This document shows, in pieces, positions 3,194 to 56,930 of a stretch of DNA of 64,000 bases. Both the position numbers and the translations under genes were made by a program. Below the pieces are notes generated by a model. The model did not search any database, had not been told where the DNA came from, and was given only the letters and a program-made list of their open reading frames with translations. Position 1 is the stretch's first letter, and each line of letters opens with the position of its first letter. The stretch comes from Caulobacteraceae bacterium (GTDB taxonomy: Bacteria; Pseudomonadota; Alphaproteobacteria; Caulobacterales; Caulobacteraceae), in NCBI GenBank assembly GCA_947478785.1, contig CANJXI010000007.1, forward strand, positions 1 to 64,000. Direction: 5' to 3'.

Positions 3194-3306
3194 TAGAGCG
3201 CGTCAGGGTGAAGTGGATACCGGTTCACCCGTCCGACGCGCTCTAAACATTTGAAGATAGACCCTTTCCGGTTCAAGTGATTCCACTTGAACCGGAAAGG
3301 GTCTAG
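3194..3306. repeat. Composite two-hairpin intergenic repeat, copy 1
   Basis: The first half is a palindrome with outer arms TAGAGCGCGTC / GACGCGCTCTA. The linker AAACATTTGAAGA follows. The second half is a palindrome with arms TAGACCCTTTCCGGTTCAAG / CTTGAACCGGAAAGGGTCTA, nearly perfect over 20 bases. The same architecture recurs at 39117-39231 and 56817-56930. It lies between the nudC stop and the terminator-like hairpin of the convergent PEP-CTERM gene. This copy lacks the four bases ATCC or similar that lengthen the second hairpin in the other copies. Confidence 0.9.
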
Positions 3307-39116: not shown

Positions 39117-39231
39117 TAGAGCGCGTCAGGGTGAAGTGGATACCGGCTCACGTCCGACGCGCTCTAAACATTTGAAGATAGACCCTTTTCATCCCGTTCA
39201 AGTGATTCCACTTGAACCGGAAAGGGTCTAG
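39117..39231. repeat. Composite two-hairpin intergenic repeat, copy 2
   Basis: Same architecture as the copy at 3194-3306: TAGAGCGCGTCAGGGTGAAG...GACGCGCTCTA, then AAACATTTGAAGA, then the hairpin TAGACCCTTTT...AAAGGGTCTA with ATCCCGTTCAAG/CTTGAACCGG inside. The inner part of the first hairpin is more diverged (GGCTCACGTCC). It separates two convergent genes, and its last bases (CTAG, read on the minus strand as part of GCC-TAG) provide the stop codon for the membrane protein at 39228-40007. Confidence 0.9.
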
Positions 39232-47824: not shown

Positions 47825-48436
47825 CTAGACCGACACACCTTCGTCCGGGCCATCAGGCGCGCGCAGGGGCGAGACCTGGCCGAACAGGACATGATCTCGC
47901 CAGTCGCCGTTAATTTTCAGATAAGCCTTGGCATATCCCTCCTCGGCGAAGCCCGCCTTCACGAGCAGCCGGCGGGAGGGCAGGTTGTCGGGAATGCAGG
48001 CCGCTTCCAGCCGGTGGAGGCCCAGCGTGCGGAAGGCGAAGTCGCCCAGCGCGCGGACCGCCGCCAGGGTGTGGCCGTTGCGGGCGAAAGGCTTGCCGCA
48101 CCAATAGCCTACCGAGCCCGTCTGGGCGACGCCGCGGCGGATGTTGGACAGGGTTATGCCGCCGGTCAGGGTGTCGTCGGCGGCCCGCACGACAAAGAAC
48201 GGATAGGCCGCGCCCACCTCCCGGTCGCGGGCGTAGGCGACCAGTCTGCGGCGGAACGCCGCGCGGCTGAGATCGTCGGCCGGCCAGGTCGGCTCCCAGG
48301 GCTGCAGGAAGGCCCGCGAAACGGCCCGAAGTTCGCGCCATTCCGGATAGTCCGCGGCCCTGGGCGGCCGCAGCCGCACGCCGTCGCCATCGACCCGCAG
48401 GCCGCTCTCCGGCGCGATCCAGTCCAGCAGGGCCAT
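47825..48436 (-). CDS. rimJ: GNAT-family acetyltransferase, RimJ-like
   Basis: A 203-residue N-acetyltransferase of the RimJ/RimL branch. VRLRPPRAADYPEWRELRAV at the start, PFFVVRAADDTLTGGITLSN and GSVGYWCGKPFARNGHTLAA (acetyl-CoA loop, in place of Q/RxxGxG), then LGLHRLEAACIPDNLPSRRL LVKAGF form the standard motifs (the last two quoted separately: LHRLEAACIPDNLPS, LLVKAGFAEEG). Family members acetylate the N-termini of ribosomal proteins S5 and L12; other small substrates are possible. Shares a short divergent promoter region with the DNA-repair helicase. Ends 41 bases before the PdeA-like start. Confidence 0.85.
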   Translation of the reverse strand: MALLDWIAPESGLRVDGDGVRLRPPRAADYPEWRELRAVSRAFLQPWEPTWPADDLSRAAFRRRLVAYARDREVGAAYPFFVVRAADDTLTGGITLSNIRRGVAQTGSVGYWCGKPFARNGHTLAAVRALGDFAFRTLGLHRLEAACIPDNLPSRRLLVKAGFAEEGYAKAYLKINGDWRDHVLFGQVSPLRAPDGPDEGVSV

Positions 48437-48521: not shown

Positions 48522-51113
48522 ATGGCCGACGCCGCGGGTCCCGCGCCCGATCTCCTGCCGCCCAGGTTCGCCGACTGGTTCGCCGGGCGGGGCTGGAGCC
48601 CGCGCGCGCACCAGCTTGCGATGATCGGCGAGGCCCGGGCCGGGCGCGACGCCCTGCTGATCGCGCCCACCGGCGGGGGCAAGACGCTGGCGGGCTTCCT
48701 GCCCAGCCTCATCGAGCTTTCCGAACGGCCGCCGGCCAACACGCCAAGGGGTCTGCACACACTCTACATCTCGCCGCTGAAGGCGCTGGCCGTGGATGTG
48801 GAGCGCAACCTGGGCGCCCCGATCCTGCAGATGGGCCTGCCGGTCGTGGCGGAGAGCCGGACCGGCGATACGGGGATTTCGCGACGCCAGCGCCAGCGGG
48901 TGAAGCCGCCGGACATCCTGCTGACCACCCCCGAGCAGCTGGCGCTGTTCTGCGCCTGGGAAGGCGCGCGGCTCTATTTCGAGAACGTCGCCTGCGTGAT
49001 CCTGGACGAGATCCACACCCTGCACGCCTCAAAGCGCGGCGACCTCCTCGCGCTGGACCTGGCGCGGCTGCAGCGGTTCGCGCCGAACATGCGCCGTGTC
49101 GGCCTCTCGGCGACGGTGGACGATCCCGAGGTGATCAAGAATTGGATGGCCAGTCACCGCTGCGCGCCCTCCACCACTTCGTGGTCTCCCTCCCCCGTCG
49201 GCACGGGGGAGGATTTCAGCACTTCAGATCCTCCCCCGCGTGCGGGGGAGGGGGACCGCGAAGCGGTGGAGGGGGCGCTGGGTCAAGGCGCCGCGTCCAT
49301 CGACCTGGTCCGCGGCCCCGCCGGCGCGGAGCCGATCGTCGAGATCCTGTTGTCGGAGGGGCGCGTGCCGTGGGCGGGGCACACGGCGCAGCACGCCATG
49401 GCCGAGGTCTATGAGGTCATCCGCAAGTCGAAGACGGCGCTGATCTTCGTCAACACACGCTTCCAGGCGGAGTTCGCCTTCCAGGAGCTGTGGAAGCTGA
49501 ACGACGACAGCCTGCCGATCGCCCTGCACCACGGCAGCCTGGCGCCCGAACAGCGGCGCAAGGTGGAGGCGGCGATGGCGCGGGGCGAACTGCGGGCCGT
49601 GGTCTGCACATCCACCCTCGACCTGGGCATCGACTGGGGCGACGTGGACCTGGTGATCCAGCTGGCCAGCCCCAAGGGCGCCTCGCGGATGGTGCAGCGG
49701 ATCGGCCGGGCCAACCACCGGCTGGACGAGCCTTCCCGCGCGCTCTTCGTGCCGGCCAACCGCTTCGAGATGCTGGAGTGCCAGGCGGCGCGGGAGGCGA
49801 TCGCGGAGAACCGGCTGGACGGCGACCCGCCCCGGGTCGGCGCGCTGGACGTGCTGGCCCAGCACGTCATGGGCTGCGCCTGTTCCGAGCCCTTCGACCT
49901 CCTGGCGCTCTACGACGAGGTGCGCTCGGCCGGTCCCTATCGCAACCTGATCTGGGAGGACTTCGAGCAGGTCGTCGATTTCGTCTCGACCGGCGGCTAT
50001 GCGCTCAAGAACTACGACAGGTTCCGCCGCATCGTGAAGGGGCCAGATGGCCTCTGGAAGGTGCGCAACGCCGAGACGGCCCAGCGCCACCGGATGAACG
50101 TGGGCGCGATCATCTCGCCGGCCATGCTGTCGGTCCGCATCGCCATGCGCGGCGGCCGGGGCGGCCGCAAGATCGGCGAGATCGAGGAAGGCATGCTGGA
50201 GATGCTGGAGCCCGGCGAGACCTTCGTGTTCGCCGGCCAGGTCTGGCGGCTGGTGGGCGTGACCAACCTCGATGTGCTGGTCCAGCCGGCGCCGGCGGCC
50301 GACCCGAAGATGCCGTCCTGGGGCGGCTCGAAGTTCGCGCTCTCCACCTACCTCGCCAAGCGGGTCCGCCAGCTGATGTACGACCAGGAACACTGGCGGG
50401 TGCTGCCCACGGACGTGCGCGAGTGGCTGGAGGCCCAGCGCGACCGCTCGGTGATCCCCGAGGAGGACGAGATGCTGCTGGAGACCTTCCCCCGGGGGAA
50501 GCGGCATTTCATGGTGGTCTATCCGTTCGAGGGCAGGCTGGCGCACACCACGCTGGCCATGCTGTTGACCCGGCGGCTGGAGCGGATCGGAGCCGCGCCC
50601 CTGGGCTTCGTCTGCAACGACTACGCGATGGCGATCTGGGCGCTCAACCCGCTGGACGGCCTCGACTTCGCCGAACTCTTCGACGAGGACATGCTGGGCG
50701 ACGACCTGGAGGCGTGGCTCGCCGAGAGCTTCATGATGAAGCGCGCCTTCAAGGGCTGCGCGATCATCGCGGGGCTGATCGAGCGGCGCTTCCCGGGCCA
50801 GCAGCAGAAATCGGGGCGCCAGATCACCTTCTCGACCGACCTCATCTACGACGTGCTGCGCCGCCACCAGCCGGACCACCTCTTGCTGCGCTGCGCGCGC
50901 GACGATGCGGCGACCGGCCTGATCGACGTGGCGCGGCTGGGGCAGATGCTGGCGCGCGTCCGGGGGCGGATCCGGCACGCGCCGCTGGAGCACCTGTCGC
51001 CGTTCTCGGTGCCGATCCTGCTGGAGATCGGCAAGGAGCGCTCACCGGGCCAGGCCGGCGAGATGATCCTGCGCGAGGCCGCCGAGGACCTGATCGCCGA
51101 GGCCATGCAGTGA
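48522..51113 (+). CDS. Ligase-associated DNA-damage-response DEXH helicase (Lhr-like)
   Basis: An 863-residue superfamily-2 helicase. Walker A is APTGGGKT (about 48-55), the DEXH box LDEIHTLHA (about 170), motif III LSATVDDPEV (about 198), motif VI QRIGRANHR (about 405). After the two RecA domains comes a winged-helix and beta-sheet core, then a long C-terminal Lhr region. Partner of PdeM (the next gene, overlapping) in a system usually linked to an ATP-dependent DNA ligase and a 3'-exonuclease, neither of which is here. An extra segment of about 36 residues (216-251), encoded by a palindromic repeat, is inserted between motif III and the second RecA domain (see findings). Start ATG 48522. 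Confidence 0.9.
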   Translation: MADAAGPAPDLLPPRFADWFAGRGWSPRAHQLAMIGEARAGRDALLIAPTGGGKTLAGFLPSLIELSERPPANTPRGLHTLYISPLKALAVDVERNLGAPILQMGLPVVAESRTGDTGISRRQRQRVKPPDILLTTPEQLALFCAWEGARLYFENVACVILDEIHTLHASKRGDLLALDLARLQRFAPNMRRVGLSATVDDPEVIKNWMASHRCAPSTTSWSPSPVGTGEDFSTSDPPPRAGEGDREAVEGALGQGAASIDLVRGPAGAEPIVEILLSEGRVPWAGHTAQHAMAEVYEVIRKSKTALIFVNTRFQAEFAFQELWKLNDDSLPIALHHGSLAPEQRRKVEAAMARGELRAVVCTSTLDLGIDWGDVDLVIQLASPKGASRMVQRIGRANHRLDEPSRALFVPANRFEMLECQAAREAIAENRLDGDPPRVGALDVLAQHVMGCACSEPFDLLALYDEVRSAGPYRNLIWEDFEQVVDFVSTGGYALKNYDRFRRIVKGPDGLWKVRNAETAQRHRMNVGAIISPAMLSVRIAMRGGRGGRKIGEIEEGMLEMLEPGETFVFAGQVWRLVGVTNLDVLVQPAPAADPKMPSWGGSKFALSTYLAKRVRQLMYDQEHWRVLPTDVREWLEAQRDRSVIPEEDEMLLETFPRGKRHFMVVYPFEGRLAHTTLAMLLTRRLERIGAAPLGFVCNDYAMAIWALNPLDGLDFAELFDEDMLGDDLEAWLAESFMMKRAFKGCAIIAGLIERRFPGQQQKSGRQITFSTDLIYDVLRRHQPDHLLLRCARDDAATGLIDVARLGQMLARVRGRIRHAPLEHLSPFSVPILLEIGKERSPGQAGEMILREAAEDLIAEAMQ
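49167..49273. repeat. Palindromic element inserted in frame inside the helicase gene
   Basis: Two arms of about 50 bases form a near-perfect inverted repeat: the left begins CCCTCCACCACTTCGTGGTC and the right ends GACCGCGAAGCGGTGGAGGG, each containing an inner CTCCCCCG...CGGGGGAG hairpin and meeting at TTTCAGCACTTCAGAT. It lies wholly inside the helicase reading frame, translated as Ser/Pro/Gly/Glu-rich residues 216-251. GC-rich palindromes of this look are abundant between genes in Caulobacterales (recollection). Confidence 0.85.
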
Positions 51114-51841
51114 GCGGGATCGCGGCCGCCGCCTTCACCTACGCCTTCGCCCAGAGCGGGTGCGGCTCGCTGCGCACCCGGCTGATGGCGGCCGAGGTGC
51201 TGCTGCGGCCGTCCGGCGCCCTATGGCTCGAGGCCGAGGGGGCGCTGGTGGTGGCCGACCTGCACCTGGAGAAGGGCTCGGCCTACGCCGCGCGCGGCCA
51301 GATGCTGCCGCCCTACGACACCCGCGACACCCTGCGACGGCTGGCCGCCGAGGTGGAGGCGCTTGCGCCGCGCGTCGTGATCCTGCTGGGCGACACCTTC
51401 CACGACCGCCGTTCCGAGAGCCGGCTGGCGGCCGATGACGCGGATCGGCTGCGGGCGCTGGCCTGTGGCCGGACCCTCATCTGGGTGATCGGCAACCATG
51501 ACGCGGACGGACCCAAGGCGCTGCCCGGGGAGCGCGCCGAGGCCTTGTCGCTGGGCGGCCTCACCTTCCGCCACGAGCCCCGGGCGGGGCTCCAGCCCGG
51601 AGAGGTGGCGGGCCACCTGCATCCCGCCGCCCTGGTCCGCGCCTCGCGCGGAAGCGTGCGTCGGCGCTGCTTCGTCACCGACGCCGAGCGCGCCATCCTG
51701 CCCGCCTTCGGCGCCTACGCCGGCGGCCTGAACGTGCGCGACGCGGCTTTCGCCGGCCTCTTCGCGCGCCCGCCCCTGGCCGGCGCCCTGGGCGCCGGCC
51801 GCGTGCATGCGGTCGGCTGGCGGTCTCTGGCGGGCGACTGA
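51110..51841 (+). CDS. pdeM: Ligase-associated DNA-damage-response endonuclease PdeM
   Basis: A 243-residue metallophosphoesterase. Metal-binding motifs: ADLHLEKGSAY (DxH), LLGDTFHDRR (GDxxxD/H), IGNHDADGPK (GNHD), and GEVAGHLHPAALVR (GHxH). It starts with GTG at 51110, overlapping the helicase stop (GTGA), so translation is coupled. In other bacteria PdeM acts with this helicase, a ligase and an exonuclease in an incompletely understood repair pathway. The remaining partners are not in the window. It ends 16 bases before the stop of the convergent Cys-motif repeat protein. Confidence 0.88.
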   Translation: MSGIAAAAFTYAFAQSGCGSLRTRLMAAEVLLRPSGALWLEAEGALVVADLHLEKGSAYAARGQMLPPYDTRDTLRRLAAEVEALAPRVVILLGDTFHDRRSESRLAADDADRLRALACGRTLIWVIGNHDADGPKALPGERAEALSLGGLTFRHEPRAGLQPGEVAGHLHPAALVRASRGSVRRRCFVTDAERAILPAFGAYAGGLNVRDAAFAGLFARPPLAGALGAGRVHAVGWRSLAGD

Positions 51842-56816: not shown

Positions 56817-56930
56817 TAGAGCGCGTCAGGGTGAAGTGGATACCGGTTCACCCTGACGCGCTCTAAGCATTTGAAGATAGACCCTTTTCATCCGGTTCAA
56901 GCGATTCCACTTGAACCGGAAAGCGTCTAG
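56817..56930. repeat. Composite two-hairpin intergenic repeat, copy 3
   Basis: The best-preserved copy. The first hairpin has perfect 19-base arms TAGAGCGCGTCAGGGTGAA / TTCACCCTGACGCGCTCTA around GTGGATACCGG. The linker is AGCATTTGAAGA. The second hairpin reads TAGACCCTTTTCATCCGGTT...AACCGGAAAGCGTCTA with the central CAAGCGATTCCACTTG. Two substitutions (AGC, AAGCG) set it apart from copies at 3194 and 39117. It lies between two convergent genes. Confidence 0.92.

Follow-up and report, generated by a model that had tools for sequence, protein, structure and literature searches.

Rickettsia palindromic elements insert in frame in protein genes. They are cited in PMC3733652, whose available text also describes palindromes inside DNA-repair genes outside Rickettsia, among them recB, where two Xanthomonas species carry one at nearly the same position. 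Short palindromic units arranged as inverted doublets are likewise found in the REPIN/RAYT system and among the GTAG/CGTC REPs (PMC3116915, PMC3733652), the CGTC type being without a transposase according to the accessible part of the latter source. A further class, the intrastrand triplex motifs (TM/PIT), consists of a hairpin plus a third purine strand, dispersed in genomes and often present as inverted pairs of two types (Holder et al., 2015; PMC4666352, citing Hoyne et al.). These motifs were counted across hundreds of genomes, one of them being present in more than 260, and their positions in E. coli K-12 are always intergenic; in the available parts of that paper no tie to a mobile element is made and DUF559 is not mentioned. 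The DUF559 protein YcjD of E. coli was placed in the PD-(D/E)XK group and tied to Vsr in 2005 (PMC1189080, as far as its accessible text goes).

In this work we analyzed a window of 64,000 nucleotides, the whole stretch under study, from a Caulobacteraceae bacterium of the genus Phenylobacterium (GCA_947478785.1, contig CANJXI010000007.1), in which a helicase gene carries a palindrome whose repeat units also bracket DUF559 genes. What spreads the triplex-motif repeats has not been known, nor what the common DUF559 family does; the association reported here connects the two. A DUF559 element with triplex-type ends, i.e., units bracketing DUF559 genes, was not found described: no paper tying DUF559 to these repeats was retrieved from the open-access literature, bioRxiv and most subscription journals lying outside the search, and one may exist.

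Palindrome in the Helicase Gene

A sequence-only reading of the window had reported an inverted repeat of about 107 bases (49167-49273) within a DNA-repair helicase gene that stays open through it, adding residues 216-251 between motif III and the second RecA domain. All of this was borne out, with slightly wider limits for the repeat (49162-49278) and for the added residues (214-253, counted from the ATG at 48522). The features of the locus are the following:

48522..51113, + strand: ligase-associated DEXH box helicase gene, encoding 863 aa (start at the ATG at 48522) or 892 aa (start at an in-frame upstream ATG at 48435)
49162..49278, no strand: inserted palindrome of two inverted repeat units, helicase residues 214-253 (inverted-repeat scan, frame check, folding and architecture scan)
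49164..49212, - strand: repeat unit L, 49 nt, TM/PIT-type
49213..49229, no strand: spacer between units L and R, which stand head-out (tails outside, hairpins inside)
49230..49276, + strand: repeat unit R, 47 nt
49230..49251, + strand: first hairpin of unit R, arms CCTCCCCC / GGGGGAGG (read from the sequence)
49255..49267, + strand: second hairpin of unit R, ACCGC GAA GCGGT (read from the sequence)
49268..49275, + strand: third-strand tail of unit R, GGAGGGGG, mirror image of the purine arm GGGGGAGG (read from the sequence)

The palindrome arms (49162-49197 and 49243-49278) are 36 nt each, 89% complementary and 45 nt apart, and the palindrome ranked first among the 25 listed of 35 inverted repeats in the 64-kb window. 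As single-stranded DNA its 117 bases folded with -56.4 kcal/mol, compared to a mean of -26.6 (sd 2.7) for 200 shuffles, none of which was as stable (z of -10.9), and the two inverted palindromic units form one larger hairpin, as is the case in REPINs.

The protein belongs to TIGR04121, the ligase-associated DEXH helicases (1062.9 bits; cut-off of 850), and the insert falls between its matches to Pfam DEAD (residues 29-200) and Helicase_C (296-397), i.e., between the RecA domains. The reading frame is open across the whole palindrome; four of the six frames of the insert are open, and stop codons were absent from every frame of five single units tested, which explains why an insertion readily stays open. 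Because the frame is open and domains are conserved to the left and right of the insert, we infer that the insert is translated, and the helicase is presumed to function with it. The AlphaFold2 model of the helicase was poor (mean pLDDT of 56.6, residues 213-256 being one of several stretches below 50) and thus says little about the insert.

Repeat Units in the Genome and the Genus

Each unit consists of a pyrimidine arm, a loop and a purine arm, followed by a small second hairpin and a tail of purines in mirror order to the purine arm (A to T changes allowed). Among 210 hairpins in the DUF559 flanks of the genus set, the tail mirrored the arm perfectly in 146, and for asymmetric arms the tail was the mirrored one in 127 of 188 cases vs. 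34 for the unmirrored one. The second hairpin covaried in a test of 11 units from a single clade (score of 0.291, reached in 0 of 500 shuffles, vs. 0.080), the paired cells exceeding all 500 shuffles; pairs with changes on both sides were not significant in these 11 units, since 102 of the 500 shuffles were as high.

Judged by its sequence, the unit is the published orphan intrastrand triplex motif. Unit R comprises a pyrimidine/purine hairpin and then a mirror-image purine third strand, with a predicted triplex, and the units are multi-copy, dispersed and arranged in inverted pairs often of two types. Moreover, the published form CCCTCTCCC..GGGAGAGGG..GGGTGAGGG occurs here next to DUF559 genes. 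The units differ from the motifs as published in that they bracket DUF559 genes, form clade-specific subfamilies and have a second hairpin, and in that one pair lies in frame inside a protein.

A search of the whole genome with the palindrome showed that it is not unique to the helicase gene: the insert gave 53 BLAST matches (both strands counted), and the core pattern, with at most one mismatch, was present in 21 copies compared to 0 for the reversed pattern. The same units are found outside genes throughout the genome, and within the 64-kb window the architecture scan located them only at the helicase insert. In 60 Phenylobacterium genomes the hairpin CCTCYCC..GGRGAGG occurred 3310 times, vs. 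183 for the reversed pattern, and it was present in all 60. Contigs C72 and C35 of the window's own genome (G000) both start about 72 bases ahead of a unit, which suggests assembly breaks caused by the repeats and true copy numbers above those counted.

DUF559 Genes Bracketed by Repeat Units

The search with the insert led to contig C72, where a DUF559 gene (G000:C72:151-450; PF04480, 89.4 bits vs. a gathering score of 20.6) lies between two inverted units. The unit on its left (G000:C72:74-120) differs from unit R only in the hairpin loop, and the subfamily of the insert also brackets a DUF559 gene in its own genome.

We extended the analysis to a genus set of 109 testable loci (111 taken from 150 matches, two being dropped for too little flank) and to a wider set of 79 testable loci (80 from a protein-only scan of 84,980 species, one dropped for the same reason). 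The two flanks were mutually inverted at a score of at least 28 in 92 of the 109 genus loci, compared to 10.5% of mismatched loci. By architecture scan, gene-ward units were present on both sides in 67/109 genus loci and on at least one side in 98, both units pointed outward in 19, and 11 loci had no unit. The wider loci gave 45/79, 64, 19 and 11, respectively, and control windows in those same loci showed gene-ward units on both sides in 1/445 and on at least one side in 19/445. Hairpins alone carry no orientation (76/109 in either sense); it is the tail that orients the unit (67 vs. 19). Among the wider loci scoring at least 28 were some from records with the titles Dehalococcoidia, Nitrospiria and Gastranaerophilales, in addition to Proteobacteria, with the caution that titles of metagenome-assembled genomes may be wrong.

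In 51 of the 86 genus loci with a downstream unit, the reading frame of the nuclease ends within the 3' unit of its own locus (18) or continues past it (33), so that the unit may supply the C-terminus of the protein. The C-terminus of E. coli YcjD, RRSPSP, coincides with a degenerate motif at the 3' end of ycjD. The architecture scan detected no unit at the ycjD locus of E. coli K-12, and published motif 9 (1/23) lies about 170 bp downstream of the gene, oriented away from it.

After omission of the 17 of 109 loci with a flank score under 28, the DUF559 proteins of the remaining 92 loci formed six clusters and a singleton. The mean cross-flank repeat score was 30.1 within clusters vs. 18.0 between them, and the Mantel correlation of protein with repeat was 0.448, the highest of 999 permutations being 0.084. 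DUF559 clades carry their own repeat subfamilies, and gene and ends travel together. This matching may reflect co-inheritance rather than recognition, which matching alone does not prove.

Copy number of a subfamily tracked its cognate clade best in two of four tests (0.70 and 0.70). It was not clade-specific for the insert's own subfamily (0.37 with the cognate clade vs. 0.44 with another) or for the CCTTCTCCC type (0.47 vs. 0.49). All of the 39 genus genomes (out of 60) with a strong DUF559 match had at least 13 hairpins, ten weak matches, one per genome in ten genomes, having been set aside ahead of the correlation. Among the 21 without one, ten had six or fewer and eleven had 17-98 (98 in G004 and 71 in G081); the hairpins of these eleven could be relics, could accompany genes missed in drafts or could owe their spread to another agent.

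Presence and Absence at Orthologous Sites

Between two convergent genes, G024 has a full element of 539 bases where G081 has nothing; the flanks are 91-92% identical, and some 35 bases outside the element differ too. Of 15 genomes read here, two carry a DUF559 element at this site, four another unit pair, four nothing and five some other sequence. Elsewhere, where G079 has a 163-bp pair, G074 carries a palindrome of another kind, the flanks being 90-93% identical. Neither exact junctions nor target duplications were found at the three sites examined, and the helicase linker is itself variable.

A palindrome with CGTCATCC..GGATGACG ends was seen within one DUF559-type pair, in its core, and in place of another such pair at an orthologous site (L298, G074:C1:2683300-2683800; L293), as if the two repeat families shared landing sites. 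It appears to resemble the CGTC REPs of PMC3733652.

In E. coli the full fabI-ycjD-sapF segment was present in 3,333 of 5,426 genomes. Two genomes with the fabI part alone have an efflux operon at the ycjD position, an arrangement already published for that site (PMC12817139, available in part), so the ycjD site gives no clean empty site.

The Nuclease and Its Proposed Role in the Spread of the Units

DUF559 is predicted to be a nuclease with a Vsr/EDxHD-like fold. The model of its core (pLDDT of 82.3) matched 3hrl, I-Bth0305I (3r3p) and Vsr (1cw0, 1vsr), and a profile of 29 relatives matched 3hrl at 9.1e-39, 3hrl itself being DUF559 by profile. E, D, H and D positions are conserved in DUF559, a putative relative of Vsr and of the EDxHD homing endonuclease I-Bth0305I. 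The latter has extended DNA-binding regions (according to the accessible text of PMC3943268), whereas DUF559 domains, of about 110 residues, appear to be without them.

Taken together, the helicase segment is almost certainly a multi-copy repeat pair that was inserted here and is associated with DUF559. Movement of the segment by DUF559 best explains the bracketing, the clade-specific ends and the site polymorphism, and we consider it moderately likely. The full element would be a small bacterial mobile element made of a unit, a DUF559 nuclease gene and an inverted unit. The units would fold into a hairpin, a second hairpin and a third-strand tail, and the cognate DUF559 endonuclease may recognize the folded units and nick or cut them. 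Unit-gene-unit and unit-unit segments would then be copied or moved, by a presumed strand-transfer chemistry, to new and mostly intergenic sites. The helicase segment itself probably represents a non-autonomous, REPIN-like pair of this element, mobilized by DUF559 and tolerated in a permissive linker, where its length fits the frame and its units bring no stops.

On a broader scale, we lean slightly towards regarding DUF559 proteins, from Phenylobacterium to E. coli YcjD, as dedicated mobilizers of bacterial triplex-forming repeats. They would define a transposon class of about half a kilobase (unit, nuclease, unit) with a Vsr/EDxHD-like nuclease and folded triplex-forming ends, whose non-autonomous derivatives may scatter tens to hundreds of units through a genome and occasionally turn into protein linkers. 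If DUF559 does mobilize the repeats, the system would be REP-like and would depend on a nuclease of unrelated origin.

Alternatively, the repeats could spread unaided, by slippage during replication, by template switching or during the repair of breaks at triplex or hairpin DNA, with DUF559 as a passenger or an associated host repair nuclease. The available text of PMC4666352, which ties the motifs to no mobile element, proposes them as a cause of instability; in addition, genomes that lack a strong DUF559 match still retain repeats, and two of the four copy-number tests were not clade-specific. However, gene-ward bracketing on both sides across phyla, clade-specific subfamilies and a site that either holds or lacks the complete unit-gene-unit segment fit an element and not a passenger, which makes self-spread unlikely.

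The resemblance to REPINs (PMC3116915, in its available part) raises the question of whether the units are REPs moved in trans by RAYT, a Y1 transposase, the DUF559 link being secondary. Both systems share short palindromic units, inverted doublets, a bracketed nuclease gene and insertion in a DNA-repair gene. Here, however, the nuclease is DUF559 and not a Y1 transposase, the unit sequences are others and a third-strand tail is present. Since PF01797 had 0 matches in the window's own genome, no Y1 gene is bracketed by units there, and it was matched in only 11 of the 60 genus genomes (10 over the cut-off), yet hairpins occur in all 60 and are abundant where no Y1 gene was found. We therefore rejected RAYT as the agent, which is very improbable.

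The Insert among Same-Genus Helicases

The sequence-only reading had judged the added residues foreign to the helicase family. The comparison covered the helicase loci of 30 out of 36 same-genus genomes, 29 of them readable (L059, without an anchor, was left out), and measured linker length between fixed anchors. A short linker of 28-39 residues without any unit was found in 21/29, and a helicase-specific constraint was rejected as origin of the segment. The linker was long (68-92 residues) in the other eight, seven of which contain units; the architecture scan detected no unit in the long linker of L034.

The seven unit-bearing linkers differ in arm order (two orders) and in the type of repeat (at least three). 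By eye, a tails-outside pair is present in this genome and in G009, a tails-inside pair in G031 and G033, one unit of the window's type with one of a second type in G024 and G004, and a CCTCTCCC-type pair in G032. These patterns point to at least four insertion events, so that the linker, as far as its sequences tell, is a permissive site of recurrent insertion. The first unit of L040 is translated in a different frame from that of L033, the helicase of this genome; hence the peptide is not what is kept, and it is probably not selected itself.

An ancestral, functional helicase part, such as a regulatory linker whose palindrome is a by-product of the protein sequence, would account for the open frame and for the long linkers of eight relatives. 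It is nevertheless highly improbable, because 21/29 helicases are without the segment, long linkers hold different unit types and arm orders, the same units lie outside genes genome-wide, the first unit of L040 is read in another frame, and peptide conservation over the repeat was not seen. An assembly artefact, i.e., a repeat misjoined into the gene of a draft genome of 147 contigs, some of which start at such repeats, is hardly credible given the intact frame on either side of the insert and the similar inserts that helicases show in six more assemblies, including the 2-contig assembly of G024.

A palindromic element read in frame at a protein linker, as proposed from the sequence, therefore holds, being neither universal in relatives nor confined to this gene. 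The proposed sharing of principle with Rickettsia palindromic elements is supported, with qualifications: the in-frame palindromic insertion in a protein gene, absent from 21/29 orthologues, is shared, whereas the repeat here is of the TM/PIT type and tied to DUF559. The lineage is also another one and the repeat here has a nuclease gene with matching ends, the comparison being one by description. Palindromes in repair genes having been described in PMC3733652, in so far as its text is available, the principle is less new than had been thought. The helicase represents the by-product case, in which stop-free palindromic mobile DNA is repeatedly turned into a protein linker at one permissive site.

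Unit-spanning reading frames were also inspected elsewhere. In G009, the ImuB-like Y-family polymerase L174 (G009:C8:174000-178500), in which a unit pair precedes the Pfam IMS match, is a real mid-protein insertion and the second DNA-repair protein with such an insert. In G009, two other frames (L173 and L176) were discarded because their units lie upstream of the likely start, and the remaining flagged ones look spurious. Seven more in the loci of this genome matched nothing in Pfam, had the look of wrong frames and were rejected as further protein-coding insertions.

Other Features of the Window

The frame that follows the helicase gene (about 51150-51841, + strand) looks like a metallophosphoesterase, probably the PdeM-like partner of ligase-associated helicases. 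A second palindromic family is present in three copies of about 112 bp (3194-3305, 39117-39230 and 56817-56929), each composed of two palindromes with TAGA..TCTA ends (TAGAGCGCGTCAGGGTGAAGTGGATACCGGTTCACCCTGACGCGCTCTA and TAGACCCTTT..AAAGGGTCTA).
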